A DNA stretch of 64,000 nucleotides from Microvirga lupini (lineage in GTDB: Bacteria > Pseudomonadota > Alphaproteobacteria > Rhizobiales > Beijerinckiaceae), in the NCBI RefSeq assembly GCF_014191055.1, contig NZ_JACHWB010000006.1, positions 124,001 through 188,000 of the forward strand, given 5' to 3'. Within the stretch, counting starts at the first letter, position 1. Every line of letters starts with the position of its first letter. Both the position numbers and the translations under genes were made by a program. Of the stretch, positions 35,279 through 51,717 are shown one piece after another. The notes under the pieces are model-generated. The model was not told where the DNA came from. It saw only the letters and a list, made by a program, of their open reading frames with translations, and did no database searches.

Positions 35279-35523
35279 TAGGCGTCTTTTCTCCACCGCT
35301 TCGGTACGTCCAACGTCGAAGAGCAACTTACGTTCAATTGTGAACATAAGCTGGACCATGTGTGCACATGTAGACAGACAGATCGAAAGCTCCCGTCTAC
35401 AAGGACACCCAAGTGCCCTTCAAACGACGATCTACCGGCCTGTGCGACGGGCTCAGACCTGATGCGCAGCATACGGGTTCGATCGCCAACCCAACCGAAC
35501 CCGCTTACCTGTTGAGACTGTCC
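35279..35523. promoter_or_regulatory. divergent promoter between Crp/Fnr and kaiC-like genes
   Basis: Contains two short inverted repeats: 35332-35345 (GTTCA, 4-nt spacer, TGAAC) and 35357-35370 (CATGTG, TG, CACATG). They are candidate sites for the adjacent Crp/Fnr-type regulator. If the longer frames on either strand were used, part of this stretch would be coding. Confidence 0.35.
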
Positions 35524-37041
35524 ATGACGCTTTCGTCGCCTTCCGATGCCGCTCCGATCCCGACAGGGATTCCAGGCCTCGACGACCTCCTGGCGGGTGG
35601 GTATGCCGCCAATCGCGCCCACCTGATCGAGGGCCGGCCGGGCTCCGGCAAGACCACGCTGGGGATGCAATTCCTCATGGCCGGTGCCAAGCTGGGCGAA
35701 TCCTGCCTCTACATCACCCTATCCGAGAGCAAGCGCGAGCTACTGTCCGTCGCCTCCCGCCATGGCTGGTCGCTTGAGGGCATCGAGATCTTCGAGCTTG
35801 TCCCGCCGGAGCTGAGCCTCGATCCCAAGCAGCAGCAAAGCCTTGTCTATTCCTCCGATCTGGAACTCGGCGAGACGGTCCGCATGGCGCTGGCCGAGAT
35901 CGAACGGGTGAAACCCAGCCGGGTGGTGTTCGACTCGCTCTCCGAGATCCGGCTTCTGTCCCAGGGGTCCCTGCGCTACCGTCGACAGGTGCTGGCGTTG
36001 AAGAGCTACTTCCTGCTCAATGATGCAACCGTCCTCATGCTCGACGACCTCACGTCCGAGCAGGACGACCTCAACCTGCACTCCATCAGCCATGCGGTCA
36101 TCCGTCTTGAGCAGATCGTCCCGGCATACGGCTCAGAACGGCGCCGGATCACGGTGACGAAGATGCGGGGCACGGCCTTTCGGGGTGGTTACCACGACCT
36201 CATCATCGAGCGGGGTGGCTTGCGGATCTTTCCGCGCCTTACGGCGGCTGATCATCACAGGGAGTTTGCCTTTGACGCGATCCCCAGCGGCATCGTGGAA
36301 CTCGACACCATCCTGGGTGGTGGCCTGAGCCGCGGCACGAGCACCCTTGTGGTTGGCCCGTCGGGGGCGGGCAAGTCCACGTTGGCGCTGGGCTATCTCT
36401 GGGCCGCCCTGGAGCGCAGCGAGCCTGCCCTCATGATCAGCTTCGACGAGACCATCGGTATTCTTCTGCAACGAGCCAAGGGCGTCGGCTTCGACTTGGC
36501 GCCTCACGTTGAGGCCGGACGGCTTCGCATCGAGCAGATCGACCCGGCCAACGTCTCGCCCGGCGAATTTTCTGGCCGTGTGCGGGAAGCCGTCGAGCAA
36601 GGCGGCGCGAAGGTCGTCGTCATCGACAGCCTGACCGGGTACCTGAACGCCATGCCGGAGCAGCCCTTCATCGTGCTCCAGATGCACGAGCTCCTGACCT
36701 ACCTGAACCAGCAAGGCGTGGTCACGATCCTGATCCTGGCTCAGCACGGCATGATCGGCCAGATGGTCTCGCCGATCGACTTGACCTACCTCAGCGACAC
36801 CGTCGTCCTTCTGCGTTTCTTCGAAGCGAACGGCCGCATCCGGCGGGCGCTGTCGGTGGTGAAGCGGCGCACGGGCTCGCACGAGGACACGATCCGGGAG
36901 TTCCGGATCGACAGTCAGGGTTTGCGCGTTGGTCCGCCGCTGGAGCAGTTCCGGGGTGTGTTGACAGGCGTACCGACGTTCGAGGGCCAACGCGCCTCGC
37001 TTCTCGAGGAGCGTGAGAGCGACAATGATGCAGGCCGATGA
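35524..37041 (+). CDS. KaiC-like double-domain ATPase
   Basis: 505-residue RecA/DnaB-fold protein with two KaiC domains. Walker A motifs G-R-P-G-S-G-K-T (37-44) and G-P-S-G-A-G-K-S-T (278-286); Walker B-like F-D-S-L-S-E and V-I-D-S-L-T. The glutamate pairs of cyanobacterial KaiC appear as S-E (I-T-L-S-E-S) in domain 1 and D-E (S-F-D-E-T) in domain 2. The Ser431-Thr432 phosphosites align by eye with T421-Y422 in L-T-Y-L-S-D-T. It probably acts as a timing or stress ATPase rather than a full clock. The start at 35524 fits homology but has a poor ribosome site. No kaiB or kaiA is present. Confidence 0.85.
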   Translation: MTLSSPSDAAPIPTGIPGLDDLLAGGYAANRAHLIEGRPGSGKTTLGMQFLMAGAKLGESCLYITLSESKRELLSVASRHGWSLEGIEIFELVPPELSLDPKQQQSLVYSSDLELGETVRMALAEIERVKPSRVVFDSLSEIRLLSQGSLRYRRQVLALKSYFLLNDATVLMLDDLTSEQDDLNLHSISHAVIRLEQIVPAYGSERRRITVTKMRGTAFRGGYHDLIIERGGLRIFPRLTAADHHREFAFDAIPSGIVELDTILGGGLSRGTSTLVVGPSGAGKSTLALGYLWAALERSEPALMISFDETIGILLQRAKGVGFDLAPHVEAGRLRIEQIDPANVSPGEFSGRVREAVEQGGAKVVVIDSLTGYLNAMPEQPFIVLQMHELLTYLNQQGVVTILILAQHGMIGQMVSPIDLTYLSDTVVLLRFFEANGRIRRALSVVKRRTGSHEDTIREFRIDSQGLRVGPPLEQFRGVLTGVPTFEGQRASLLEERESDNDAGR

Positions 37042-38068
37042 GGTGTCCGTACTGATCCTCGCCCCTCACGGGAGGGATGGCACGGTGGCAGCGGCCATTC
37101 TTGGCGAGCTCGGGATCAAAGCCACGATATGTCCCGGCCTTGAGGCACTTGTCGCCGAGTTGGATGGGTCGGCCTGCGCGGTGATCACAGAGGAGGCGCT
37201 TCTCAGCGCCGACCGGCGGGAGCTTGCCGAGTGGATCAAGGTGCAGCCGCCCTGGTCCGACTTTCCGTTTATCCTGCTGACCCAGCGCGGCGGCTCACCC
37301 GTCGAGCACCTGACTGACCTACTCGGGAATGTTACCGTGCTGGAGCGACCGTTCCATCCGGCTGTGTTGGTGAATGCCGTACGATCCGCCATGCGGGCGC
37401 GGCAGCGGCAGCGGGAGGTGGAGGCGCATCTCAAGGAGCGGCAGCAGGCGCACGAGCGCCAAGCGCTGTTGATCCGCGAACTGCATCACCGGGTCAAGAA
37501 TACCCTTGCGACGGTCCAAGGGCTGCTCGGAGCCACCGCCCGCTCGACACATTCAGTCGACGAATTCTACCAGTCCTTTGCGGATCGCATCGTCTCGCTA
37601 GCCAACACGCATAATCTCCTGACCGAGGACTACTGGCAGACGGCACCGCTGGTCGAGATGCTCAGGAATGAGCTGGCTCATTATGACGATGGCGCGCAGC
37701 GACGGATCTCCCTTGACGGACCGTCGGTTGAACTCTCAGCGGATCTAGCTGTGCCGATTGGGATGGCTGTGCATGAGCTGACCACGAACGCAGCCAAGCA
37801 CGGGGCACTTTCAGTTCCGGGCGGGCAGATCGCAGTGGCTTGGACGGTCCAGGATGTTGAAGCAGGGCGTCGGCTTGCGATTGACTGGGTCGAGCGTGGT
37901 GGTCCTCGTGTGGAGCCGCCGCGGCGCAAGGGTTTTGGCTCGACGCTGCTGCATCGGGTGCTGACCCATCAATGCCACGCAACGATCAGCATCGCCTATG
38001 ACCCAGATGGCCTCTCCTGCCACATGGATATTCCTCTGGTCGAGGAGCGATTGGTGCCGGAGTATTGA
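37025..38068 (+). CDS. HWE/HisKA_2 histidine kinase with pseudo-receiver
   Basis: 347-residue kinase. Residues 5-120 look like a receiver fold but have E-E (V-I-T-E-E-A) where the phospho-Asp should be, and E-R-P-F in place of the usual K-P, so it is likely unphosphorylatable. A short coiled coil follows (R-A-R-Q-R-Q-R-E-V-E). The kinase part has the HisKA_2 box R-E-L-H-H-R-V-K-N (H154/H155) and an HWE-type ATPase with H-E-L-T-T-N-A-A-K-H-G-A. It overlaps the kaiC-like gene by 17 bp, implying a shared task. ATG codons at 37025 and 37028 follow GAGGAG at some distance. Confidence 0.85.
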   Translation: MMQADEVSVLILAPHGRDGTVAAAILGELGIKATICPGLEALVAELDGSACAVITEEALLSADRRELAEWIKVQPPWSDFPFILLTQRGGSPVEHLTDLLGNVTVLERPFHPAVLVNAVRSAMRARQRQREVEAHLKERQQAHERQALLIRELHHRVKNTLATVQGLLGATARSTHSVDEFYQSFADRIVSLANTHNLLTEDYWQTAPLVEMLRNELAHYDDGAQRRISLDGPSVELSADLAVPIGMAVHELTTNAAKHGALSVPGGQIAVAWTVQDVEAGRRLAIDWVERGGPRVEPPRRKGFGSTLLHRVLTHQCHATISIAYDPDGLSCHMDIPLVEERLVPEY

Positions 38069-38480: not shown

Positions 38481-39377
38481 TCAGGACATGCGTGGTGGGA
38501 CACCGCCTGCAGACTGAACAGACAATCCCCCCGCTTCTATTCCAGCCACCAAACTTCTCTCTAGGTCTGAAGTGCTGAGCCAGGAGTGCAGAAAGCCAGC
38601 ATTGAAGGCATCACCCGCTCCTGTTGTATCGACCACCTTCACCCGAAGCGCTTCAGCAGAGACGCAGGTCGATCCGCAGGAGGCCATGGCACCGCCCTCG
38701 CCGCGCTTGAGCACCACCAATGGAAATCTCTCCCGCAGGCTCTCCAGAATCGCATCGTCCGCGCTTTCTCCAGTCAGCGCCTCTCCCTCCTCGGCGTTCG
38801 GAAGCAGCAGGTCGATACCCGCGCAGATCTCGAAGAAGTCCGAGTCGCGGCGGATCAGTTCATCGTCCCAACTCGGGTCAAGGGAGATCGTCAGGCCAAA
38901 ACTGCGAGCCAAGGCGATCACCTCCGGAGTGTCCTTCAAGGTGGCAAATTCCGCGATGTGCAGATGGGTGACACCATCGGCCGAGAGAGCCTGTTCGAGG
39001 GTCGCCGGGCGTGACCCACCTGCACGCCGGGACACGAACGCTCTTTCCCCATTTTTGACCAGAGCCACCGTCGGCTGAGGGCCGGCGTCATGTGACCGCT
39101 CGACGAACGACAGATCGATCCCGCTGGCTTCGAGTTCCGGGTTGAGGCTCTGCGACAGTGGGTCCGAACCAAGGCGGGTGACGAGGGCAGCCGGTCGCCC
39201 TAGGGAGGCGAGGTGCGCCGCCGTGATATAGGCCCCACCGCCGGCCGCGATAGTGACGTTATCTGCAAACCTTTCGCGTCCCAGCACTGGCATCTCGTGC
39301 AGGCCCGTGAAGATGATGTCGCAATAGGTCCGCCCAAGACATAGGACCTTGCTGCGCTCCATAGGCGTTCCGGTCAT
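38481..39377 (-). CDS. PfkB family sugar kinase
   Basis: 298-residue ribokinase-fold kinase. N-terminal G-G-G-A-Y-I-T-A-A-H-L-A-S-L-G (PfkB signature 1, about residues 46-60) and C-terminal D-T-T-G-A-G-D-A-F-N-A-G-F (signature 2, catalytic Asp, about 244-256). It should phosphorylate a sugar or sugar conjugate. Members include fructosamine 6-kinases, fructokinase and KDG kinase. It is the last gene of the minus-strand ABC operon and overlaps the ATPase gene by ATGA, so it likely acts on the imported solute or a product of the lyase. Confidence 0.88.
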   Translation of the reverse strand: MTGTPMERSKVLCLGRTYCDIIFTGLHEMPVLGRERFADNVTIAAGGGAYITAAHLASLGRPAALVTRLGSDPLSQSLNPELEASGIDLSFVERSHDAGPQPTVALVKNGERAFVSRRAGGSRPATLEQALSADGVTHLHIAEFATLKDTPEVIALARSFGLTISLDPSWDDELIRRDSDFFEICAGIDLLLPNAEEGEALTGESADDAILESLRERFPLVVLKRGEGGAMASCGSTCVSAEALRVKVVDTTGAGDAFNAGFLHSWLSTSDLERSLVAGIEAGGLSVQSAGGVPPRMS

Positions 39378-40444
39378 CGGGCTGCCAGCGCTTTCTCGGT
39401 GGCCTCGTCGAAATAATAGAGGCGCTCTGCCGGGGCATGGAGTGTCAGATGCTCGCCAATCTGCGGGATCTGCCGACCCGGCGCGGAGCCGATGACGGTC
39501 TGGCCAGCGCTCTCGATGTGCACGAGGGTCTCCGAGCCGAGGGTTTCCACAACCACTACCGTGCCCGACACGGTCAGTCCTGGCACGCCGGGGCTGCTCG
39601 GGACAAGATCCTGCGGTCGTGCGCCAACCAGGATGTCCGCGCTGGTCGCTGCGGCTGACGGAACCTGAACGGATCCACCAAGCGCCAGATCCGCTCCTCC
39701 ATCCCGTAGGGATGCCGGCAGCAAGTTCATCGTCGGGCTGCCGATGAAGCGGGCGGTGAATATATCGACCGGGTTCTCGTACAGCTCGAGAGGCGTACCC
39801 ACCTGCAGGATCCTGCCATCGCGCATTACCACGATTCTGTCGGCCATCGTCATGGCCTCGACCTGATCATGCGTGACGAACACCGAGGTGGTGCCGAGCC
39901 TGTGGTGGAGTCGTTTGATCTCGATCCGCATCTGGGTGCGCAATTGGGCGTCGAGATTGGAAAGGGGCTCGTCGAACAGGAACGCGGCCGGATCGCGCAC
40001 CATCGCCCGGCCTATGGCGACCCGCTGGCGCTGGCCGCCCGACAGCGCCGAGGGGCGGCGATCGAGGAGCTGGGAAAGGCCGAGGGTTTCGGCAGCCTGC
40101 TCGACGCGCTGACGTTTCTCGCTCTTTGAGAGGTTGGAGCGATAGAGGCCGAAGGCAATGTTGTCCGCGACTGTCATATGCGGATAAATGGCATAGTTCT
40201 GGAACACCATGGCGATGTTCCGATCCTTGGGCTGAAGATCGTTGACGACACGTCCGTCGATCCGGATCTCGCCGCCGCTGATTTCCTCAAGCCCGGCAAT
40301 CATCCTGAGGGTCGTCGACTTGCCGCAGCCCGAAGGGCCCACGAGGACGACGAATTCGCCGTCGCGGACTGATAGATCGATGCCGTGGACCACAGTCGTA
40401 TGCCCGTAGCGTTTGATGAGGCGATTAAGGTCAATGGTGGCCAC
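39374..40444 (-). CDS. sugar ABC importer ATPase (UgpC/MsmK type)
   Basis: 356-residue ATPase: Walker A G-P-S-G-C-G-K-S-T (36-44), signature L-S-G-G-Q-R-Q-R-V-A-I-G-R, Walker B F-L-F-D-E-P-L-S-N-L-D, switch T-H-D-Q-V-E-A, then a C-terminal TOBE/OB regulatory domain (about 240-350) as in carbohydrate importers of the MalK group. It shares a base with the lyase gene stop and overlaps the kinase gene, so the operon is translated as a chain. Confidence 0.9.
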   Translation of the reverse strand: MATIDLNRLIKRYGHTTVVHGIDLSVRDGEFVVLVGPSGCGKSTTLRMIAGLEEISGGEIRIDGRVVNDLQPKDRNIAMVFQNYAIYPHMTVADNIAFGLYRSNLSKSEKRQRVEQAAETLGLSQLLDRRPSALSGGQRQRVAIGRAMVRDPAAFLFDEPLSNLDAQLRTQMRIEIKRLHHRLGTTSVFVTHDQVEAMTMADRIVVMRDGRILQVGTPLELYENPVDIFTARFIGSPTMNLLPASLRDGGADLALGGSVQVPSAAATSADILVGARPQDLVPSSPGVPGLTVSGTVVVVETLGSETLVHIESAGQTVIGSAPGRQIPQIGEHLTLHAPAERLYYFDEATEKALAAR

Positions 40445-41952
40445 TACTGGGCTCCCATAAGTGCTGTGAAACGGGATTGAAGGTCATGTGCAGAGGTCTG
40501 CTCGCGCTGCGCCGCGTTCTGCATGCGTTTGCGAATGCCAGATGTTTCATCATTGTAGGCGGCGATGGCCTGGGAGAGCGCCCTAGGCGCCGGTCCACCG
40601 AACCGGTCGCGTACAGCGACGAAGTTCTCGGGCGAAACAATCTTAGCAAAGTCATCCTCGTTGATGTTCGCTGGACGTCCAGTGCAGTGCTCGAAAGACT
40701 CCCGGAAGACCTTGTAGCCGTCGATCCCGATGTCACCTTCTATGGCCACGACCGCGCGAGCGACGGCTGCTGCAATCTCGTGGGCCTCCCGGAATGAAAG
40801 CCCCTCACGACGGACGAGGCTGTCGGCGAGCTCGGTCACTGTGATGCAGCTGCGGCGGATGTTCTGACGCACCCGGTCAGCATTGATGCGTAGCGCCGGA
40901 ACCAGCGCCGTGAGCAAGTCGAGCACGCGCCCGCCGCTCTCAAAAGCGCCATATCCGAAGCCCTGACTTTCGCCCTCGCTGTCGTTCATGTCGGTGAACG
41001 GAGTGTTGTGCATGATCGTCAGCATGGCCTGCGCCCGACCGACCGTCTGGGAGGCAAGGTGGCGCATGTGCTCGATGGGCACCGGATTGCGCTTCTGCGG
41101 CATGATCGAGCTGATCTGCACGAAGGCGTTGGGCACATAGACTTGGCTGACCTCGAAGCTTGTCCAGAACTGCAGGTCCTGGATGAAGCGCCCGAGATGC
41201 AGGAAGATCAGCTCGATGGCTGAATAGGTCGAGGTGACGTAGTCGATTGCCGCGATGCAGCCATAGGAGTTCTGCAGGGGACGGCTGAAGCCGAGAAGCC
41301 GCGCCATCAGGTCTCTGTTTATGGGAAAGCCGCTTGTGGTAATGGCCGCGGCTCCCATCGGGCTGCGGTCCACGATATCACGGGCCGCCTCCAGCCTTGT
41401 GATGTCACGCAGCAGGGTCTCCAGCACCGCCGCAAGATAATGCCCAAAGACGGTCGGTTGGGCCGGCTGACCGTGGGTATAGGCGACGATGAGTGTACTG
41501 TTCTCCCGCTCGGCAACCGACGCTAGGGTTTCGGCAAGGCGGACGAGACGCTCCAGCAGCGAATCGATCCGGTATTTAAGACCGAGCTTGAACAGGGTAT
41601 GATCGATGTCATTACGCGAGCGTGCGGTGTGAAGTCGACCTGCCAGATCCGGACCGAGCCGTGTGCGCAGCTCCTTCTCAATCAGGAAGAAGAAATCCTC
41701 GACCTCTCCAGTATAAGTGAGGGCGCTAACGTCCAATTCGCGGTCGATCGCTTCAAGCGATTGAGCAATCGGACGGGCCTGCTCGATTGTCAGAATACCA
41801 GTCTCATGTAGCATCACGAGATGAGCCCTGTCGATCCGGCGGAAGGCCTCGACATGGTGATCCTTCGCGCCGTCGAAGAGCGGGCGCAGAACGGCTTCCT
41901 TGTAGACCGGATTAGGGAATATGGAGCTGTCGTTGTAGGAGCCTGCAGTCAT
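40444..41952 (-). CDS. argininosuccinate-lyase-like C-N lyase
   Basis: 502-residue member of the fumarase/aspartase superfamily, argininosuccinate lyase branch. Marks: H-T-A-R-S-R-N-D (108-115), T-H-G-Q-P-A-Q-P-T near 155-165, and the catalytic-serine loop S-S-I-M-P-Q-K-R-N-P (about 285-294). True arginine-pathway ASL is usually about 460-470 residues and sits with arg genes. This one lies inside a sugar-type ABC operon between a permease and the ATPase. Related enzymes release fumarate from N-substituted aspartates (for example EDDS lyase). A conjugate of aspartate with an amine or sugar is the likely substrate type (inference). Confidence 0.85.
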   Translation of the reverse strand: MTAGSYNDSSIFPNPVYKEAVLRPLFDGAKDHHVEAFRRIDRAHLVMLHETGILTIEQARPIAQSLEAIDRELDVSALTYTGEVEDFFFLIEKELRTRLGPDLAGRLHTARSRNDIDHTLFKLGLKYRIDSLLERLVRLAETLASVAERENSTLIVAYTHGQPAQPTVFGHYLAAVLETLLRDITRLEAARDIVDRSPMGAAAITTSGFPINRDLMARLLGFSRPLQNSYGCIAAIDYVTSTYSAIELIFLHLGRFIQDLQFWTSFEVSQVYVPNAFVQISSIMPQKRNPVPIEHMRHLASQTVGRAQAMLTIMHNTPFTDMNDSEGESQGFGYGAFESGGRVLDLLTALVPALRINADRVRQNIRRSCITVTELADSLVRREGLSFREAHEIAAAVARAVVAIEGDIGIDGYKVFRESFEHCTGRPANINEDDFAKIVSPENFVAVRDRFGGPAPRALSQAIAAYNDETSGIRKRMQNAAQREQTSAHDLQSRFTALMGAQ

Positions 41953-41956
41953 CGGC

Positions 41957-42808
41957 TCAGCCTTTCAGCCCGGTGAGCATCACGCCTCGGACGATGTAAC
42001 GCTGGAGAAACAGGAAGATGATGAGGGTCGGTAGGGTCGCGATACTCGCGCCCGTCATGATCTTCTCCCATTGGATCGATTGCTCGACCGCGAAGCTGGA
42101 GAGCCCGACAGGCAGGGTGTAGAGTTCAGCGCTCGTGGTCACGATGAGAGGCCAAAAGAACGCCGTCCAATTGCCGAGAAAGGTGAAGATGGCGAGTGCC
42201 GAGAGGGCAGGGGTGACGAGCGGCATGGCGATTTTCCACCAGATTGTGAACTCGTTGAGTCCGTCGATCCTCGCCGCCTCCAGAAAGTCGTCCGGCACAC
42301 CTTCGAAAAACTGCTTCATCAGGAAGGTGCCAAACGCCGTCATCATCCCTGGGAACATGATGCCCCAATAGCTATCGATCCAGCCGAACTGGCTCGCCAT
42401 CAGATACCAGGGCAGGACCAGCATCTCGGTCGGGATCATCAGGGTGGACAGGATCGCTATGAAGACGATGTAGCGGCCTCGGAAGCGAAACTTCGCCAGC
42501 GTATAGCCGACGAGGCTATCGAAGAACACGTTCGACAGGGTGACGATCACCGCCACGATGGTCGAGTTCATGAGCCAGCGGGTGAAGCGCCCGTCACCGA
42601 GGATCTCGATGTAGTTGTCGAGGGTCGGCGTCTCGGGGATCACGCGCAGGTCATAGACCTGCGAAGCGTCCTTCAGGGACGTCGAGAGCATGAAGAGCAG
42701 GGGTGTCACCATGATGACGCCGCCAATAAACAGCAGCGTCCAGCAAAGGATCCGGCCTGGCCGGATATGTGGCATCATAAGGCCCGGTGGGAATGCGGCG
42801 GCTTTCAT
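41957..42808 (-). CDS. sugar ABC importer permease (MalG type)
   Basis: 283-residue inner-membrane permease with six hydrophobic helices and the coupling loop E-A-A-R-I-D-G-L-N-E-F-T-I-W-W. The short N-terminal tail precedes the first helix (I-L-C-W-T-L-L-F-I-G-G-V-I). It overlaps the partner permease by one base and lies 4 bp before the lyase gene. Confidence 0.9.
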   Translation of the reverse strand: MKAAAFPPGLMMPHIRPGRILCWTLLFIGGVIMVTPLLFMLSTSLKDASQVYDLRVIPETPTLDNYIEILGDGRFTRWLMNSTIVAVIVTLSNVFFDSLVGYTLAKFRFRGRYIVFIAILSTLMIPTEMLVLPWYLMASQFGWIDSYWGIMFPGMMTAFGTFLMKQFFEGVPDDFLEAARIDGLNEFTIWWKIAMPLVTPALSALAIFTFLGNWTAFFWPLIVTTSAELYTLPVGLSSFAVEQSIQWEKIMTGASIATLPTLIIFLFLQRYIVRGVMLTGLKG

Positions 42809-43734
42809 CAGCGGTCTCTCATGAGGCGCAACTGAACAAGGGATATCACGAGAAGGATCACGAACAGCACCACGGTCTGAGCAGCCGCATATCCCATCTC
42901 ATAGGAGCTGAAGGCAGTCTGGTAGATCATCAGCACCAGGGGCTTGGTGGAGTTCAGCGGCCCGCCGGGATCGTTCGTGTTGATGTTGTAGACCTGGTCG
43001 AAGATGCGAAGGAAGCCGATGGACGAGAAAACGACGAGAAACACCAGGGTCGGCTTCAGCAGCGGCAGGGTGATCTTGCGCAGGATAGCGCCTTCAGGAA
43101 GGCCATCAATGCGCGCGGCTTCGTAATAGGTGACGGGAATAGCCCTGAGCCCCGCCAGGAAGATGATGATCTGGAAGCCTAGGCCTGCCCAGACCGCGGG
43201 CGCAAGCACGGCCGGCAGCGCCTGCGAGGTGGAGCGCAGGAACGGCTGCTGCGGGATGCCAAAGCTGGAAAGAACGTCGTTGATCACCCCGATGGGAACA
43301 GGCTGGTAGAACCAGCGCCAGACCCAGGCCATCGCCGCTGCGGTCGTAAGGAAGGGAAGGAAGTACAGCGCGCGGATGAATGAGTGCATGAACCGCACGC
43401 GGTCGAGGTAGTAGGCCACCACGAAGGAGATCAGCAGACTGATCGGCGTGCCGAGGATCAGGTACAGGAAGGTGTTGCGGAACACCTGCCAGAACAGCGG
43501 ATCCCCGAGCAGCCTCCCGTAGTTCTCTAGCCCGACGAAAGCGGCAGGCTTGGTGATCGTCCAATCGGTCACCGACAGGTAGAAGGCTTGGAAGGTCGGC
43601 CAGAAGCGGATGACTACGTAGAAGACGAGCGGAACCGCGAGAAAGCTCCACGCCCAGATCACCTGCTTCTGACCGAGGCTCATCCTCGACCAGAGGCCGC
43701 CGGAGGCGACCTCCCGATGTGAGACGGTGGACAT
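42808..43734 (-). CDS. sugar ABC importer permease (MalF type)
   Basis: 308-residue inner-membrane permease of the CUT1 group. It begins with a cytoplasmic tail, then W-S-F-L-A-V-P-L-V-F-Y-V-V-I as the first helix. The coupling loop is E-A-A-R-I-D-G-L-P-E-G-A-I. It pairs with the MalG-type protein and the binding protein encoded 24 bp upstream. Confidence 0.9.
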   Translation of the reverse strand: MSTVSHREVASGGLWSRMSLGQKQVIWAWSFLAVPLVFYVVIRFWPTFQAFYLSVTDWTITKPAAFVGLENYGRLLGDPLFWQVFRNTFLYLILGTPISLLISFVVAYYLDRVRFMHSFIRALYFLPFLTTAAAMAWVWRWFYQPVPIGVINDVLSSFGIPQQPFLRSTSQALPAVLAPAVWAGLGFQIIIFLAGLRAIPVTYYEAARIDGLPEGAILRKITLPLLKPTLVFLVVFSSIGFLRIFDQVYNINTNDPGGPLNSTKPLVLMIYQTAFSSYEMGYAAAQTVVLFVILLVISLVQLRLMRDR

Positions 43735-43758
43735 GCGCTGCTTCCTCGCGGGCGTAGA

Positions 43759-45012
43759 TTAGCGCTTGGCGCGGTCGATGATTGCCTGTTCGGCCTCCGC
43801 GGCCTTTTCCAGGGAGGCCTTAGGATCCTCGCCGCCGATCAGGACGCGGTTGGCCATGTCGATGGCCACCTGACGCTGGGCCGCCTCGTCCTTGAACAGG
43901 GTGGTATGCGCATATTCGAGGCCTTTGAGGAATGGGCCGTAGACCGGATGCGCAACATTTTCGGGCGTCAGGGCCACTTCACGGCGGGCCGGCAATTCGC
44001 CCACGACTTCCATCCAGACCTTCATGGCCTCGGGTGAAGTGACGTATTTCAGGAACTTCTCGGCCGCTGCCAGCTTCTCGCCTTCCGCTTTCGTGGTGAC
44101 GGCGTTGGCGAAGTAGCTCGCATAGTTGCTGCGCACGCCTTGAGCGTTGGCGGGAAGCTCGGTCACGCCCCATTCGAAGGCCTTGATCGTACCGAAGGAG
44201 CCGAGGCGGAAGGTGCCGTCGATAGTCATGGCGGCAAGGCCTGCACGGAAGGCTGCCTGTCCCTCATCCATGAAGCCGGCTTGACCGACCTTATGCTTCT
44301 TCTGCAGGTCTGTGTAGAAGGTGAGCGCTTTCAGGCCGGCCTCATCGTTGTAGGCGACCTTTGTGTCATTCTCCGTGTAAGGAACGCCACCGAACTGACG
44401 GATCAGCACCTCGCGCCACCACTGATGGTCCTGCCCGCCCATGTCGAGCGTCATACCGGCGGAGACGATGTTCCCGCTGCCATCGCGCTTCACCGTCTTT
44501 TCAGCGGCAGCCACGAGCTCGTCGATCGTCCTCGGTGGGCTGTTAGGGTCAAGACCCGCGTCCTTGAAGGCCTTCTTGTTGTAGAAGAGGGCCAGCGAGC
44601 GCACCGCGGTTGGTAGACCATAATAATCATTGCCGCGCTTCATGGCGCTTACGATCGGGAAGAAATCGCGCTCGATTTCAGCGGCCGGGAAGGCTTCTGC
44701 GCGCAGAGGGCGGATCATCTTGCCGGCAATGAAATTGTCGGTCCAGCCATAGAACAGCTGCACGACGTCAGGTCCCTGGCCTGCCAAGATCGCGGCGGCA
44801 ACCTTGGTCTGGTAGTCCGCGTAGGGGAATGTGGTTTGCTTGACCTTGATGTCCGGGTTCGCTTCCTGGAACTTGGTGATGAGCTGGTTCATCGCCTTGA
44901 CGCGTGTGTCGAACACATATTGCCAGTACTCGATCTCGACAGCCTTGGCGCCGGTGGAGGCCAGGGTGGCGAAGCCCAAGGCAACGCTCGCGAGCATATG
45001 ACCGAAACGCAT
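43759..45012 (-). CDS. sugar ABC importer binding protein (CUT1)
   Basis: 417-residue periplasmic protein with a signal peptide ending S-T-G-A-K-A (about residue 23). It begins I-E-Y-W-Q-Y-V-F and has Y-A-D-Y-Q-T-K-V-A-A-A-I-L-A-G-Q-G-P-D-V-V-Q-L (about 59-81), as in carbohydrate-binding proteins of the UgpB/MalE group. The start is ATG at 45012, with GGGAGAGGGAC just before it. The longer frame lacks a ribosome site. It is the first gene of the minus-strand operon and divergent from the ROK regulator. Confidence 0.88.
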   Translation of the reverse strand: MRFGHMLASVALGFATLASTGAKAVEIEYWQYVFDTRVKAMNQLITKFQEANPDIKVKQTTFPYADYQTKVAAAILAGQGPDVVQLFYGWTDNFIAGKMIRPLRAEAFPAAEIERDFFPIVSAMKRGNDYYGLPTAVRSLALFYNKKAFKDAGLDPNSPPRTIDELVAAAEKTVKRDGSGNIVSAGMTLDMGGQDHQWWREVLIRQFGGVPYTENDTKVAYNDEAGLKALTFYTDLQKKHKVGQAGFMDEGQAAFRAGLAAMTIDGTFRLGSFGTIKAFEWGVTELPANAQGVRSNYASYFANAVTTKAEGEKLAAAEKFLKYVTSPEAMKVWMEVVGELPARREVALTPENVAHPVYGPFLKGLEYAHTTLFKDEAAQRQVAIDMANRVLIGGEDPKASLEKAAEAEQAIIDRAKR

Positions 45013-45176
45013 GTCCCTCTCCCTTCTTGCTGGCGCTGCGCGCCGTTCCATCTCTGATGCCGGCCTTAACGACCGATCCATCCTCAAGGCTCACCTAGAG
45101 TTAACGAGCTGTCAATAAGATAATCCACTTGAGTTATTTTATGGGCCGGGGCATCGTGGCGGCCTGGAGTTTGGAT
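45013..45176. promoter_or_regulatory. divergent promoter with possible ROK operator
   Basis: Short region between the binding-protein and ROK genes. An AT-rich dyad at about 45115-45139 (AATAA ... TTATT around TAATCCACTTGAG) stands out against the GC-rich surroundings and may bind the ROK repressor. No exact operator can be assigned. Confidence 0.4.
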
Positions 45177-46430
45177 ATGCCGAGAAAATCCAAGGCCGGG
45201 GTACGCTCAACGATCGGCAGCAATCCGGAGCGCAACCGTTCCCACAACCGACGCGTGGTGCTCGACGTCGTGCGCCAGCTCGGTCCTGTGGGGCGCACCG
45301 AGATCTCGCGCCACGCACATCTGAGCACGCAGGCCGTCTCGAACATCGTCGATGACCTCGTCGCCGACGGCCTTCTCATTAAGACCGGGCGGCTCAGGGC
45401 AGGGCGCGGACTGCCGCCGATCCAGTTCGCGGTCAATCCGGACGGCGGTATGACGGCCGGAGTCGAGATTGCGGCCGATCACATATCCACCCTTCTGGTC
45501 GACATCGGGGGGCGCGTCCGGGCACAGCGCACGATTGCAATCCCGCGCAACGACCCTGATAGCGTGCTGCCTGTCATCAAAGCCGAGATCGTCGCTGCAC
45601 AGGCTCAGCTGAAATCCTCCGTGTCGCAGCTTCTCGGGGTCGGGGTGGTGATGCCGGGCCCATTCAACGTGGAAGGCATGACCTCCGTCGGACCCACAAC
45701 GCTGTCGGGGTGGGCAGACTTCGACGCGGTGGCAACCATCGGACAAATGCTCGGAGCGCCCGTCACGCTCGAGAACGACGCCACTGCCGCAGCTGTTGGG
45801 GAACGCCTGCACGGCGCAGCCAAGGATCTGAAGAACTTCTGCCTGATCTATTTCGGGCAAGGGCTCGGCCTCGGCATCCTGATCGACGGGCGCCCTTACC
45901 GTGGCGCAAACGGCAATGCGGGCGAGATCGGGCATGTGCTGATCGAAAGGGACGGACGCCTTTGCTCGTGTGGCCAGCACGGCTGTCTTGAAGCTTATGC
46001 CTCCGTGCAGGCTCTTGCTGAAAAGCTTTCCGCGGCAGGAATTCTGGGGATCGACTACACTCGCCTGGAGCAGTTGCACCGCGAGCGGCACCCGATGATC
46101 GCAGAATGGATCAAGGAGGCGGCCAGCTACCTCGCGCCTCAGGTTGCGATGCTCGAAAACCTCTTCGATCCGGAGGCTGTCGTCCTCGGCGGCGCTTTGC
46201 CGCCAGGTCTACTGGAGGATCTCACGAGCGCCATGCAGCCGCTGCCTCTGTCCGTTGCACGCCGCAGGAACCGGAGCGAGGCGCGCCTGATCCATGGCCG
46301 CACAGGGCGGTTCACAGCGGCACTCGGCGCCGCAGCGCTGCCGATCCTCGAAGCCATGACACCTCGGCTCGACACTGCCCAGGCAGCCGTCCGCGAACCG
46401 ATGAACGAGGAGATTGCACTTGTTGGATGA
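45177..46430 (+). CDS. ROK family transcriptional repressor
   Basis: 417-residue regulator. The N-terminal winged helix (about 25-80) contains R-T-E-I-S-R-H-A-H-L-S-T-Q-A-V-S-N-I-V-D-D-L. The ROK domain has G-V-G-V-V-M-P-G-P-F-N, E-N-D-A-T-A-A-A-V-G-E, and the zinc motif C-S-C-G-Q-H-G-C-L-E (about 262-271). ROK repressors sense sugars or sugar phosphates, so it probably controls both divergent operons here. ATG at 45177 has GGAG nine bases upstream. A further upstream ATG at 45129 is possible. Confidence 0.88.
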   Translation: MPRKSKAGVRSTIGSNPERNRSHNRRVVLDVVRQLGPVGRTEISRHAHLSTQAVSNIVDDLVADGLLIKTGRLRAGRGLPPIQFAVNPDGGMTAGVEIAADHISTLLVDIGGRVRAQRTIAIPRNDPDSVLPVIKAEIVAAQAQLKSSVSQLLGVGVVMPGPFNVEGMTSVGPTTLSGWADFDAVATIGQMLGAPVTLENDATAAAVGERLHGAAKDLKNFCLIYFGQGLGLGILIDGRPYRGANGNAGEIGHVLIERDGRLCSCGQHGCLEAYASVQALAEKLSAAGILGIDYTRLEQLHRERHPMIAEWIKEAASYLAPQVAMLENLFDPEAVVLGGALPPGLLEDLTSAMQPLPLSVARRRNRSEARLIHGRTGRFTAALGAAALPILEAMTPRLDTAQAAVREPMNEEIALVG

Positions 46431-48816
46431 TCACAGCCGTCTGGCTCACGCCGTCCATCAGCCTGCCCTTGTCCGCCTGCATCGAGCCCTCAGCCGGTTG
46501 AAGTCCGTTCTGACGGTCATGAACACCGGTGCGCATCCGGATGACGAGATCAATGGAATGTTGGCGGCCCTGCGCTTCGCTTACGGTATGCGGGTCGTGG
46601 TGGCCTGCTCCACCCGGGGTGAAGGAGGGCAGAATGCACTCGGGCCCGAGCGGGGCGGCGTTCTCGGCGTGCTGCGAACGGCTGAGATGGAGGAGGCAGC
46701 GCGCCGCATGGATGCGGATGTGGCTTGGCTCGGCCATGGCCCCGATGATCCGGTCCACGATTTCGGATTCTCGAAGAACGGCGATGATACACTCCATCGC
46801 TGGGGCGAGGAGCGGATCGTCGAGCGCCTCGTGCGCGCCTATCGCCGCTACCGTCCGGACGTTGTCATTCCGACTTTCCTGGACGTGCCGGGTCAGCACG
46901 GCCATCACCGCGCTATGACTCGCGCGGCCGAGACCGCGCTTGCCCTCGCGGCCGATCCGTCGGCTTTTCCGGAGCATGCCGCGTTCAGCCTTCAGCCCTG
47001 GCGGGTCTCCAAGTATTACCTCCCGGCTTGGTCGGGCGCGGGCTACGCCTACGATGACGAGGTGCCCCCGCCGCCCGCGACGCTCAGTCTTGAGGTAGCC
47101 GGTGGTGACGAAGTCACGGGCCTCGCCTACAAGCAACTCGGCGAGTGGTCGCGCGCCGCGCACGCTTCCCAGGGCATGGGCGTGTGGCGGGACAAGCCGG
47201 TCGATCGGTGGAGCCTGCACCTGAAAGTGCGAGCCGGTGGCGAAACCGGATCTGAGAATGACATTCGCGATCACGTGCCCGCAACGCTGGCCGACATCGC
47301 GGCCATGCCGGGCATGAACGGTTCGGCGGCCACAGCCTTGCGAGAGGCCCAGACGCAAGTCGATGCCGCCATAGCGGCTTTCCCGGACCGTTCCCGGATT
47401 GTCGAAGCGTTGAACGGTGCGGCGCGTTGGATCGAAGAGGCTCGGAAGGGATTGGACGTGGAGGCGCAGCGCCAAGTAGGCCATCGCCTCTACCGGAAGC
47501 TACGGGAAATCGATGCGGCTCTCTTCGAAGCCAGCGTCAACACGGCCCGGGCCGTTTTCACCGGGCCGGCGTATCCGGGCGCGCGACTTTCCTTGCAGGT
47601 GCATGTCGACGGGCGCGAGCTTACAAAGATCACGACGGCGCTCCGCCTTCCGGAAGGCGTTGACGCCACTGTGACGCGTGACGAGCCAGGTCACGTGCAA
47701 TATGAGATTGCGATCTCTGAAGCGGCGCCCCACACGGGGAACTATCCCGAGTCCTTCGATCCGCTGGGCGGCAACGGCGCGTCCGGCCTTCGCATCTCGG
47801 GAAAGGTCGGAGACCGCATGATTGACGTCGATCTCGATCCAGAAGAGCCCCTGAAGATCGGGCCACGTCACTCTCTGTCTCTTGATCCTGCGGTAGCACT
47901 CATCAGGATGGGAGAGCCTACCTCTGGAATCCGGGTGCGAGCGGTCGGGGCTGAGCTGGCGGATTGGAAGGTACCGACGGGGTGGACAATTCGCCAGGAG
48001 GGAAGCGACTGGGTTGCCGTGCCGCCCCGTGAGGTCGGCGCTGGCCTTGCAACGTTCGTTCCCATCGTGAACGGCAGGCCGGCGAGTTCTGCGGGGACCA
48101 TCGCCTATCCGCACATTCGGCCGACATCGATCATTGAACCGGCGGAGATGAAGGTCCTCTCGCTCAATGTCACTCTCCCGGCGGGGGCCAGGATCGGCTA
48201 TGTGGGCGGCGGGAGCGACAATGTCGGCGCCCACCTGCGCCGCCTCGGCCTCGACGTGACGGATCTCGGGGAAGCCGAGCTGAAGGCTGGTTCGCTTTCC
48301 GCCTTCACGACCATCGTCATCGGCATCTTCGCCTTCGGTCTCAGGCGCGACCTCCGAGATGCGACGGTGTTATTGCATCGCTTCGTAGAGGAGGGCGGTC
48401 ATCTGGTGACGCTCTACCACCGTCCGACCGATGGGTGGGACCCTACCGCCACACCGCCGCGCCGCCTCGTCATTGGCTCGCCCTCGCTGCGCTGGCGCGT
48501 GACCGATCCCGCCGCTCCCGTCAAGGTCCTGATGCCTGAGCATCCTCTGCTGACCTCCCCGAACAGCATAGAGGCAGGTGACTGGCAGGGCTGGGACAAG
48601 GAGAGAGGCCTCTACTTGGCGGCGGAGTACGATCCCGTCTACGAGGAACTGCTGGCCCTGAACGATCCAGGCGAGAACCCGCTCAGGGGCTCCCTGATCT
48701 CCGCTCGGATCGGGCTCGGGCGACACACGCATGTGTCGCTCGTGCTGCACCACCAGCTGGACAAGCTGGTCTCCGGCGCGTTCCGCCTGCTGGCCAACCT
48801 CGTTCAGCCTGCCTGA
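46420..48816 (+). CDS. long PIG-L family deacetylase with C-terminal domains
   Basis: About 798 residues. The N-terminal PIG-L (LmbE) domain has the zinc motif A-H-P-D-D-E (38-43) and the third ligand in G-H-H-R-A-M-T (about 163). Such enzymes remove N-acetyl groups from GlcNAc-type substrates. Normal PIG-L proteins are 220-300 residues. Here residues about 360-560 look like beta-sandwich domains, and about 580-798 resemble a ThuA / glutamine-amidotransferase-like fold (Y-V-G-G-G-S-D-N-V-G ... V-E-E-G-G-H-L-V-T-L-Y-H). No signal peptide. The start is TTG: 46420 is seven bases past GAGGAG; 46414 and 46423 are alternatives. It overlaps the ROK gene. Confidence 0.82.
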   Translation: MLDDHSRLAHAVHQPALVRLHRALSRLKSVLTVMNTGAHPDDEINGMLAALRFAYGMRVVVACSTRGEGGQNALGPERGGVLGVLRTAEMEEAARRMDADVAWLGHGPDDPVHDFGFSKNGDDTLHRWGEERIVERLVRAYRRYRPDVVIPTFLDVPGQHGHHRAMTRAAETALALAADPSAFPEHAAFSLQPWRVSKYYLPAWSGAGYAYDDEVPPPPATLSLEVAGGDEVTGLAYKQLGEWSRAAHASQGMGVWRDKPVDRWSLHLKVRAGGETGSENDIRDHVPATLADIAAMPGMNGSAATALREAQTQVDAAIAAFPDRSRIVEALNGAARWIEEARKGLDVEAQRQVGHRLYRKLREIDAALFEASVNTARAVFTGPAYPGARLSLQVHVDGRELTKITTALRLPEGVDATVTRDEPGHVQYEIAISEAAPHTGNYPESFDPLGGNGASGLRISGKVGDRMIDVDLDPEEPLKIGPRHSLSLDPAVALIRMGEPTSGIRVRAVGAELADWKVPTGWTIRQEGSDWVAVPPREVGAGLATFVPIVNGRPASSAGTIAYPHIRPTSIIEPAEMKVLSLNVTLPAGARIGYVGGGSDNVGAHLRRLGLDVTDLGEAELKAGSLSAFTTIVIGIFAFGLRRDLRDATVLLHRFVEEGGHLVTLYHRPTDGWDPTATPPRRLVIGSPSLRWRVTDPAAPVKVLMPEHPLLTSPNSIEAGDWQGWDKERGLYLAAEYDPVYEELLALNDPGENPLRGSLISARIGLGRHTHVSLVLHHQLDKLVSGAFRLLANLVQPA

Positions 48817-48820
48817 GTCG

Positions 48821-49732
48821 ATGGTTGTTGAAGCCGAAAGCCGATCCGCCGGTTCCGCAGCCTCCCTGTGGAGCAGCGCGGCATGGCTGCTGCTCGACAT
48901 GAGCCTGGTGACGGTCATGCAGGCTATGGTCAAGGCGAAGGGTGACGTCTACCCGGCTGTTCAACTCGTCTTCCTACGCTCCCTCGTCGGGTTCCTGACG
49001 GTAGCGCCGCTCATGTGGCACCACCGTGCCAAGCTGGCGAACCTGTCGAACATCCGCAGCCATCTCGTGCGCGTTGCCTTCAACTCCACGGCACTGACCT
49101 GCAATTTCGCAGCCTTCGCGGCTCTCCCGCTCGCTCTCGTTACTGCTATTGGCTACACCCGTCCCCTGATCCTGCTGGCCATGGCGGCAGTTATGCTCGG
49201 GGAGAGGGTGAGCCGGATCCGTTATGCACTTACAGCCGTGGGTTTTATCGGAGTTGTCATCATGCTGCGGCCCGACGAGATTCCCTGGAGCATCGGGCTT
49301 CTCGCTGCCTTCGGGTCCGTGTTCTTCGGCGCGCTCTCCGTGGTGCAGACCCGCCGCCTAGCCGGCGAGGACACGATCGTTCTGATGCTCTTCTACACAG
49401 TAGGCCTCACACTTCTGACATCAATTCCAGCGGCCCTCGTGTGGGTGCCGATCCCTTGGGCTGAGGCACCGAGCATCATCTTGATCGGGATTCTGGCCCA
49501 GGTCGGCCAATATTGCTGGCTGCAGGCCTATCAGAAGCAGGAGGCGCGGCTTCTGGCCCCTATCGGTTACCTGTCCATCATCTTCTCGAGTTTTGCAGGC
49601 TGGATTTTCTTTAGCGAAGTTCCATCATTGTCGTTATGCATCGGTGCAGCCGTCGTCGTTCTGAGCACCACACTCGTAACACCTGTTGAGCAATGGCTTA
49701 AGAAAAGGGTAGGGAGGAAAGGCCTGATCTGA
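48821..49732 (+). CDS. EamA/DMT family transporter
   Basis: 303-residue inner-membrane protein with ten predicted hydrophobic helices in two EamA repeats (about 15-140 and 160-285). The second half contains L-A-Q-V-G-Q-Y-C-W-L-Q-A-Y and the P-I-G-Y-L-S-I-I-F-S segment found in drug/metabolite transporters. It starts at ATG 48821, four bases after the deacetylase stop. It may export a product of the pathway or import an intermediate. The substrate cannot be inferred. Confidence 0.85.
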   Translation: MVVEAESRSAGSAASLWSSAAWLLLDMSLVTVMQAMVKAKGDVYPAVQLVFLRSLVGFLTVAPLMWHHRAKLANLSNIRSHLVRVAFNSTALTCNFAAFAALPLALVTAIGYTRPLILLAMAAVMLGERVSRIRYALTAVGFIGVVIMLRPDEIPWSIGLLAAFGSVFFGALSVVQTRRLAGEDTIVLMLFYTVGLTLLTSIPAALVWVPIPWAEAPSIILIGILAQVGQYCWLQAYQKQEARLLAPIGYLSIIFSSFAGWIFFSEVPSLSLCIGAAVVVLSTTLVTPVEQWLKKRVGRKGLI

Positions 49733-50131: not shown

Positions 50132-50767
50132 ATGGCGCATCCTAGTGAGCTGAATGTGAATCGGCGCGAGGTGATCGCTGGAGCCGGAGCTTGTGCGGCG
50201 GTTGCGGCAGCGCCGCTACCGGCAGGGGCGCAGCGGAGTCGCGTTGAAACGCCTGTGCTGACCCAGGTCTCGTTCAATGTGAATGGGCAACTTCATACCC
50301 TGGAGATCGATACTCGTACGACCCTGCTTGACGCTCTGCGGGAGCACTTGCATCTCACGGGCACCAAGAAAGGCTGTGACCACGGCCAGTGTGGCGCTTG
50401 TACGGTTCTGGTTGATGGGCGACGGATCAACTCTTGCCTGACCCTAGCCGTGATGCACCAGGGCGACACCGTCACCACCATCGAGGGGCTTGGCACTCCA
50501 GACAACCTGCACCCGATGCAGGCAGCGTTCATCAAGCATGATGGCTATCAGTGCGGCTACTGCACACCCGGACAGATTTGCTCGGGTGTAGCGGTGCTCG
50601 ACGAAATCAAAGCTGGGATCCCAAGTCATGTCACGGCTGACCTCACAGGCTCGGTGCAACTCAGCGAGGCGGAAATCCGCGAGAGGATGAGCGGCAACAT
50701 CTGCCGGTGCGGCGCCTATTCCAACATCGTCGAGGCTATGACCGAGGTCGCGGAGAAACAGGGATGA
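50132..50767 (+). CDS. PaoA-type [2Fe-2S] subunit of aldehyde oxidoreductase
   Basis: 211-residue iron-sulfur subunit with a twin-arginine-like leader ([10 protein letters not shown]). First cluster: [10 protein letters not shown] (about 84-93); second cluster: Q-C-G-Y-C-T-P-G-Q and N-I-C-R-C-G-A-Y. It belongs to the periplasmic PaoABC group, where it delivers the assembled complex through the Tat system. The FAD subunit gene overlaps its stop codon. Confidence 0.9.
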
Positions 50768-51714
50768 GATCCTTCACGTATGAGCGTGCGAACACCCCTG
50801 GTGAAGCCGCAGCCGCCGTCGCCCGCACGCCGGGCGCGAGGTTCATTGCGGGTGGCACGAATCTGCTCGACCTGATGAAGCTGCAGATCGAGACACCCAC
50901 GCACCTCGTCGACGTGAACGGCCTGAAGCTCGATACCATTGAGCCGGCCCCGGAAGGTGGGCTCCGGATCGGCGCACTTGTCCGCAACACTGATCTTGCC
51001 GCCGACGAACGCGTTCGCCGCGACTATGCTGTCCTATCCCGGGCTCTGCTCGCTGGCGCATCCGGACAATTGCGCAACCGGGCGACAACGGCAGGGAACC
51101 TTCTTCAGCGCACCCGCTGCCCTTACTTCTATGACACCGCTCAGCCCTGTAACAAACGGCAGCCCGGCAGCGGCTGTTCGGCCTTGGACGGGGTCAGCCG
51201 ACAACTCGGCATCGTTGGGGTGAGCGATGCCTGCATAGCCACTAACCCGAGCGACATGGCAGTCGCCATGCGCGTGCTCGACGCCACGGTCGAGACGGTG
51301 AAGCCCGGCGGGGTCAGCAGAACGATCCCGATTGCTGAATTTCACCGCCTGCCTGGGGATACCCCCCACGTGGAAACCGCGCTGGAGGCGGGGGAATTGA
51401 TCATCGCGGTAACCTTGCCGCCACCCCTCGGCGGTCGGCAGATCTACCGCAAGGTACGTGACCGCGCTTCATACGCCTTTGCTCTCGTCTCCGTAGCGGC
51501 TGTCATCCACCAGGACGGCACGGGACGCGTGGCTCTCGGCGGGGTGGCGCATAAGCCTTGGCGGATTGAGGCCGCAGAGGCAGATTTGCCGCGCGGTCCC
51601 AAGGTGGTCACTGAACAGCTTCTGGCCGATGCCAAGCCAACCCACGACAATGCGTTCAAGCGACCACTGGTGGAGCGTACGCTCGGAGCCGTGATATCCC
51701 AAGCGAGGAACTGA
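50764..51714 (+). CDS. PaoB-type FAD subunit
   Basis: 316-residue FAD-binding subunit of the molybdopterin dehydrogenase type. FAD loop [13 protein letters not shown] (about 34-46) and [17 protein letters not shown] (about 104-120). The four cysteines C-P-Y-F-Y, P-C-N-K-R and G-S-G-C-S match the extra [4Fe-4S] cluster known in PaoB. Start at ATG 50764, overlapping the paoA-like stop. It has no signal peptide, consistent with piggyback export. Confidence 0.9.
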
Positions 51715-51717
51715 GGC

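Follow-up and report, generated by a model that had tools for sequence, protein, structure and literature searches.

The question raised by this locus is what compound is handled by a pair of divergent operons in Microvirga lupini that combine a sugar importer, a sugar kinase and a PIG-L/LmbE-type hydrolase with an enzyme resembling argininosuccinate lyase (ArgH). The genes lie in a 64,000 nt stretch of contig NZ_JACHWB010000006.1 (RefSeq assembly GCF_014191055.1, positions 124,001 to 188,000 of the forward strand), termed the window, to which coordinates below refer. An original prediction, made from the sequence alone, had placed here an ATP-binding cassette (ABC) importer of CUT1 type interleaved with the lyase and a PfkB kinase, and, divergently, a ROK repressor, a very long PIG-L enzyme and an EamA transporter. 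A Pfam scan recovers all nine genes where they had been placed and in the families assigned, with the binding protein, two permeases, lyase, ATPase and PfkB kinase running leftward from 45012, and ROK, PIG-L and EamA rightward from 45177. The answer favoured here, to which we give an even chance of being right, is that the locus is a glucosamine-plus-fumarate module, in which an imported, decorated glucosamine is split by the lyase.

The lyase (40444–41952, minus strand) belongs to the fumarase/aspartase superfamily (Pfam Lyase_1, 134.9 bits, and ASL_C2), and its orthologues keep the motifs THGQPAQP, RSRND and SSIMPQKRNP. Superfamily residues S281, S282, K287 and N289 of the SSxMPxKxN loop, as well as H160 and Q162 of the TH.Q motif, are invariant in all 30 aligned orthologues. 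In the solved ArgH 2e9f, presumably the Thermus enzyme, the segment YNKDLQEDK supplies Tyr, Lys and Gln residues that we take to contact argininosuccinate. These are replaced in the window lyase by D321, N323 and E326, which are again invariant in 30/30 orthologues. A leaving-group pocket of acidic character would be well suited to a cation such as glucosamine.

That the enzyme is instead a second argininosuccinate lyase, within an operon for arginine or ordinary sugar metabolism, has in its favour that the protein passes the TIGR00838 argH model (311.4 bits against a cut-off of 279.5), and that its label is argH or argininosuccinate lyase in 22 of 27 plasmid records. However, two other genes of the same genome, each about 30 % identical to the window lyase, reach 554 and 481 bits on the same model although their sequences are partial. 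The first is the housekeeping ArgH, on contig C1, which retains Tyr, Lys and Gln; the second is a further ArgH-like copy, on contig C6, and so, in line with the original prediction, the window lyase is not the sole argH of the genome. The C6 copy tempers the residue argument, since of the three ArgH residues it retains only Tyr. Given the much higher scores of these two genes and the replacement of three ArgH residues, an ArgH role for the window lyase appears unlikely on sequence grounds, and, with a PIG-L enzyme, sugar importer and sugar kinase as its usual partners, the second-ArgH explanation as a whole is highly improbable. In a tree, the C1 ArgH, the C6 copy and 2e9f group together (support 100/100), and a branch separates the 30 orthologues from ArgH, ethylenediaminedisuccinate (EDDS) lyase and other paralogues, although support for this branch is weak (72/51; 74 % of 200 bootstrap trees) and some branches outside it are long. 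The structures 6g3d and 6rx8, which we take to be EDDS lyase, are among the closest solved relatives at 190.8–194.6 bits, a proximity that would suit a locus for breaking down a metallophore built on aspartate, like EDDS or aspergillomarasmine. ArgH 2e9f nevertheless scores higher (215 bits), so that the lyase is no closer to EDDS lyase than to ArgH. With the orthologues also placed apart from EDDS lyase in the tree, long branches noted, and with a sugar importer, PIG-L, sugar kinase and NagB that fit such a role poorly, metallophore breakdown is scarcely plausible.

Other ArgH-like genes were encountered alongside this enzyme. The C6 copy (L180:6800-8032; locus handles of this form are used where loci must be told apart) carries Arg and Val in place of the ArgH Lys and Gln, and is possibly another lyase with changed specificity. 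Three Microvirga genomes (L174:4442-9352, L175:3500-8423 and L176:3746-8696) encode a third ArgH-like lyase, about 36 % identical to the window lyase. Its neighbours are a binding protein of SBP_bac_1 type on one side and an ATPase-like gene on the other, and a LysR-like gene adjoins (Pfam for two L174 proteins, the rest by reading). Sinorhizobium meliloti argH2 (SMb21094), which adjoins the ABC genes SMb21095-97 (PMC2912261), was considered as the same gene and is not treated as such, on the basis of the plasmid records and not of a sequence comparison: none of the 27 holding the lyase (E ≤ 1e-80) is from Sinorhizobium.

The second enzyme is an 800-aa PIG-L/LmbE-type hydrolase (46414–48816, plus strand; true start within 46414–46423), with the Pfam PIG-L domain at residues 38–175 followed by a long C-terminal extension. 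It displays the features of the family, namely an HPDD metal motif and a later histidine ligand (H162/H165), and H41-P-D-D44, Q161-H162-G and H165 are invariant in all 22 aligned PIG-L sequences. A spacer of 97–148 residues between HPDD and the later histidine is described for the family, and LmbE/PIG-L enzymes known by 2014 are summarized as acting on N-acetyl- or N-acylglucosamine cores (PMC4101496). Amongst these, BshB acts on GlcNAc-Mal, the bacillithiol precursor (PMC4101496, where 'maleate' is printed).

The expectation that this probably catabolic gene set would be kept together elsewhere is borne out. Lyase orthologues occur in 31 of 36 other Microvirga genomes (70–92 % identity; five are without), and wide stretches from 20 of those 31 all harbour the eight non-EamA genes in unchanged order, with EamA not found in five of the 20, the more diverged ones. 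An even sample of the class contains an orthologue in 11 of 384 other genomes (51–59 % identity), eight of which have PIG-L nearby, some contigs being short; a phylum sample has it in 5 of 397 other genomes, one of them common to the class sample. A scan of named sequences returned at least 548 relatives, the best 80 of which are referred to here as named loci. They derive from Microvirga (20 titles), Rhizobium, Agrobacterium, Aminobacter, Bosea, Chelativorans, Roseibium, Rhodobacterales, Skermanella and others, as well as one Paraglaciecola, a Gemmatimonadetes metagenome-assembled genome (MAG) and a MAG labelled Lokiarchaeota, and the block arrangement recurs across genera at roughly 40–80 % protein identity. 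By tblastn with bit-score thresholds, and counting only loci with room for the gene, PIG-L is present in 66/73, ROK in 63/73, the binding protein in 71/73, the ATPase in 72/76 and PfkB in 61/76. All eight genes are found in 54 of the 71 loci having room at both sides, PIG-L lies on the strand opposite to the lyase in 65/66, and EamA is present in 43/80. A plasmid search with PIG-L alone (E ≤ 1e-20) gave 21 records, every one of which is among the 27 holding the lyase. No gene cluster outside the block occurred in more than 18 of 91 loci.

With regard to unusual members, the Paraglaciecola arctica locus is probably an isolated, acquired case, because none of 368 other sampled gammaproteobacterial genomes has the lyase (E ≤ 1e-90). 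The MAG labelled Lokiarchaeota (L112:1-20429) carries bacterial-style CUT1 importers, NagB, a NagA-like fragment and an SIS protein; it is possibly mis-binned bacterial DNA, and its label was rejected as evidence for an archaeal host. In the alphaproteobacterial loci L073 (9925-17495, same contig as L086), L074 and L077, lyase and PIG-L are divergent neighbours without a CUT1 importer. A peptide-type SBP_bac_5 gene directly follows PIG-L in L077 and clusters with genes of L073 and L086, and both L074 (Pfam) and L073 (by reading) have a pyridoxal-phosphate enzyme of Cys/Met metabolism no more than about 10 kb away.

The product is hinted at by variant loci that encode further enzymes. A glucosamine-6-phosphate deaminase (NagB or NagB-II-like) is present in 9/80 named loci and in two of eight annotated plasmid loci, the latter picked for diversity and not at random. 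Four deaminase-bearing loci also hold a ROK kinase or hexokinase, and other sugar kinases appear in some loci that are without PfkB. In Skermanella, a ROK-type kinase (no model over cut-off) and then a NagB above the TIGR00502 cut-off lie directly downstream; Paroceanicella similarly has a ROK protein and a NagB over cut-off directly downstream, and Roseomonas a ROK protein followed by an SIS protein with NagB-II as best model. The Devosia NagB, 52 % identical to that of Skermanella, comes after PfkB, as does a NagB-II-like gene in Bosea (L141 and L149, the former model-scanned), and NagB-II-like genes adjoin the block in L087, L088 and L113 (the last two model-scanned). L112 has NagB 5.6 kb past the lyase, along with a fragment read as the end of NagA. 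Paraglaciecola possesses a hexokinase, NagB, a glycosylasparaginase and a TonB-receptor-like gene opposite an importer–lyase–PIG-L operon. These kinase and deaminase neighbours point to glucosamine, not fructosamine, and the pathway probably yields glucosamine and fumarate. The original prediction of an N-acylated conjugate is partly supported, in that an N-acylated amino sugar linked to a C4-dicarboxylate fits a PIG-L enzyme alongside a fumarase-superfamily lyase, with the sugar product sharpened to glucosamine; the fructosamine-kinase role suggested for PfkB is not supported, since the protein scores 60.6 bits on the fructoselysine 6-kinase model against a cut-off of 247.

M. lupini itself has no NagB, and a NagB-II-like gene, under the model cut-off, lies elsewhere in the genome among genes read as NagA- and NagK-like. 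This region (L189:1-18001, contig C1) contains MurQ-, AnmK-, NagK- and NagA-like genes, the NagB-II-like SIS gene and a CUT1-like importer, all named by reading except for the SIS protein, which was model-scanned.

Assembled from these parts, the two operons would form one regulated catabolic unit, the order of steps being our own suggestion. The CUT1 ABC importer would take up an N-acylated glucosamine bearing a C4-dicarboxylate, and the long PIG-L enzyme would strip the N-acyl group. Known lyases of the superfamily eliminate fumarate from L-malyl or L-aspartyl groups, and by the same typical beta-elimination the window lyase would expel fumarate to leave free glucosamine. PfkB, or a ROK kinase or hexokinase elsewhere, may then form glucosamine-6-phosphate, which NagB or NagB-II, encoded elsewhere in Microvirga, would feed into glycolysis. 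From a single operator the ROK protein would keep both promoters in check, to be released by a pathway metabolite. To our knowledge, glucosaminyl-L-malate (bacillithiol, GlcNAc-malate) is the sole natural product class with both an N-acyl and a C4-dicarboxylate handle, taking the Mal of GlcNAc-Mal (GlcNAc, N-acetylglucosamine) to be malate. The best single substrate candidate is accordingly an N-acylglucosaminyl-L-malate, the bacillithiol core, a tentative choice in which malate is a guess and which has clearly less than an even chance. If malate is the conjugate, the lyase would be a glucosaminyl-malate lyase cutting a C–O bond. It would then be the first known glucosaminyl-malate (malyl-glycoside) lyase, opening a glycosidic linkage from the aglycone side via fumarate elimination, and the locus would be the first pathway devoted to taking up and breaking down bacillithiol-type compounds or their precursor GlcNAc-malate, spread through the Alphaproteobacteria; this larger proposal we put forward as doubtful. 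No BshC match is present in the M. lupini genome, which speaks against its making bacillithiol and is silent on degradation; synthesis by this organism was rejected on that ground.

A number of observations weigh against a glucosamine-plus-fumarate module. The PIG-L protein falls far under the BshB2 (21.5 against 195.25 bits) and Mca (37.6 against 277 bits) cut-offs. The lyase occurs without PIG-L in 6/27 plasmid records, 7/73 named loci with room have no PIG-L nearby, and the Bosea genome of L141 is without any PIG-L; an N-acyl group is therefore not universal to all versions of the pathway. The Gemmatimonadetes locus L095 has the lyase without any of the other eight genes, and the protein following it there, considered as a glycosylasparaginase, was rejected as such, Pfam placing it with alpha/beta hydrolases. 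On the product side, tblastn finds no glucosamine-6-phosphate deaminase nearby in 71/80 named loci, and none was found in six of the eight plasmid loci (tblastn for five; annotation only for L196–L198). The NagB-II-like proteins lie under the NCBIfam equivalog cut-off (237–344 against 430 bits). At an assumed 1–3 genes per 5 Mb, 0.3–1.0 deaminase loci would be expected in the 1.6 Mb of the 80 loci, and the chance of 9/80 is 8e-11 to 9e-7, but this is a rough, after-the-fact Poisson estimate from an assumed density, without a random-locus control, and presumes an independence that the loci, 20 of them titled Microvirga, do not fully have.

Two further explanations keep the sugar and alter its partner. 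The conjugate could be an N-linked aspartyl or asparaginyl glucosamine. GlcNAc-asparagine (GlcNAc-Asn) remaining from N-glycoproteins would be one example, and a related compound whose sugar carries the aspartate nitrogen another; the lyase would then cut a C–N bond, in keeping with other members of its superfamily. What looks like a true glycosylasparaginase at the Paraglaciecola arctica locus (L133:2789-6385; 406 bits to 3ljq, compared with 117 to isoaspartyl peptidases), which a malate conjugate leaves unexplained, favours this, as do the hexokinase, NagB and TonB-receptor-like gene (by reading) with which it diverges from the lyase operon. The loci that are without a CUT1 importer (L073/L086, L074 and L077), with the peptide-type gene of L077, point the same way, and catabolism of GlcNAc-Asn with a ROK kinase is described in Lacticaseibacillus casei (PMC6960285). 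Yet tblastn finds a glycosylasparaginase in one of 80 named loci only, L133, and there is none among the nine window genes; the sole Asparaginase_2 protein of the M. lupini genome is 30 % identical to that of L133. Moreover, the C-alpha of GlcNAc-Asn bears a free amine and not the sugar, leaving no obvious bond for a fumarate-releasing lyase, and we regard this substrate as unlikely.

Less probable again is a sugar–aspartate adduct of the Amadori or Heyns kind, from which the lyase would free fumarate and an amino sugar (glucosamine in the case of a fructose–aspartate Heyns product). Its chemistry, that of N-substituted aspartates, is of the kind handled by ArgH-like lyases, and in Bacillus subtilis the frl operon for fructosamine breakdown likewise includes an ABC type I importer (PMC12632257). 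In locus L177 of another Microvirga (G015), a type II asparaginase and an SIS protein, the latter matched best by the fructoselysine 6-phosphate deglycase model (98 of 430 bits), lie near an ArgH-like lyase, which hints that ArgH-like lyases also serve sugar–aspartate adducts. However, since the glucosamine nitrogen would already be substituted, PIG-L, present in so many of the loci, would be left without a role, and Pfam reveals no SIS deglycase among the nine window genes; a substrate of this type is distinctly improbable. L177 (1-11000) comprises an SBP_bac_3-type binding protein, MmgE/PrpD, the ArgH-like lyase (32 % identical to the window lyase), a GntR/UTRA regulator, the type II asparaginase, a HAD phosphatase and the SIS protein, and looks like a fructose-asparagine-type pathway with an added lyase.

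The remaining genes are as follows. On the minus strand, the PfkB-family sugar kinase (38481–39377; Pfam PfkB, 134.6 bits) reaches the cut-off of no NCBIfam kinase equivalog. The UgpC/MalK-type ATPase of the CUT1 importer (39374–40444) scores 485 bits on NF008653 UgpC, over its cut-off of 432. The other importer parts, namely the UgpE-like (41957–42808) and UgpA-like (42808–43734) permeases (both Pfam BPD_transp_1) and the periplasmic, UgpB-like solute-binding protein (43759–45012; Pfam SBP_bac_1), are Ugp-like and under NCBIfam cut-offs. The binding protein most likely starts at 45012, a correction that gives a signal-peptide-like MRFGHML... terminus. The original statement that overlaps of 1–4 bp link most genes is only just right, as three of the five left-operon junctions overlap (4, 1 and 1 bp), and two are gaps of 4 and 24 bp. 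On the plus strand, the NagC/Mlc-like ROK regulator, a presumed repressor (45177–46430; Pfam ROK, 178.4 bits), scores 126 bits on the NagC and 124 bits on the Mlc model, both under the NCBIfam cut-off; its start is most likely the ATG at 45177, corrected from 45129, with which other Microvirga alignment rows agree. The EamA/DMT-family transporter (48821–49732; Pfam EamA) is accessory, and most likely starts at 48821.

Within the divergent promoter, an operator-like site, AATAAGATAATCCACTTGAGTTATT (45114–45138, no strand), is conserved across loci. A 28-base pattern around it, at up to three mismatches, has one site in the 4.95-Mb genome, and a reversed-pattern control has none genome-wide. A degenerate 27-base pattern matches 40/80 named loci without mismatch, and all 40 fall among the 65 that have both ROK and binding-protein genes. 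Among the other 25, close variants occur in several, and in most of the 25 a relaxed search found none. The ROK protein probably binds this site. Beyond the block, a KaiC-family ATPase and an HWE histidine kinase flank it at 35413–38068, and a three-gene molybdenum hydroxylase (Fer2, FAD and molybdenum cofactor subunits) at 50132–53937.

In terms of known systems, fra of Salmonella resembles this locus in its importer, sugar kinase and enzyme splitting sugar from amino acid, and the PfkB kinase of the frl system is FrlD. The Bacillus frl system shares a dedicated importer (PMC12632257), along with a sugar kinase and an enzyme parting sugar from amino acid. Unlike in frl and fra, a fumarase-superfamily lyase and PIG-L take the place of an SIS deglycase, and the end product appears to be glucosamine; no SIS domain is found in the nine genes, and the fructoselysine 6-kinase score is far below its cut-off. 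The alf-2 cluster of Lacticaseibacillus casei, for fucosyl-GlcNAc-Asn, similarly imports and splits a glyco-conjugate and has a ROK sugar kinase, but does so with an MFS importer, fucosidase and glycosylasparaginase, where CUT1, PIG-L and lyase are present here (PMC6960285). BshB/Bca of bacillithiol metabolism are PIG-L/LmbE hydrolases of N-acylglucosamine that act on GlcNAc-Mal and on bacillithiol conjugates, so that an N-acyl site and a C4-dicarboxylate are combined in their substrate (PMC4101496). Whilst alike in family, the 800-aa protein sits far from the BshB2 and Mca models, in an importer locus of a genome without BshC. Argininosuccinate and EDDS lyases share with the window enzyme their fold family, the SSxMPxK.N loop and an aligned TH.Q-type region, whilst it differs from the former in its low identity to the genome's own ArgH, its three replaced residues and its sugar-metabolic partners. 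As far as could be seen, the nearest described systems (frl, alf-2 and the bacillithiol enzymes) thus share parts with this locus, and not its splitting chemistry.

No description of the gene set was found in the open-access literature searched (which leaves most subscription papers and all bioRxiv preprints outside its scope), in agreement with the earlier statement that no named pathway with this set was known, and the open-access titles listed on bacillithiol breakdown include no bacillithiol-splitting lyase or such a breakdown pathway. The operon pair looks like an undescribed pathway importing a decorated glucosamine. As public records name the lyase argH, an erroneous arginine annotation probably conceals a catabolic pathway in many genomes. 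Should the product assignment be true, this would be a new way to split amino-sugar conjugates, by fumarate elimination as opposed to hydrolysis or deglycation.

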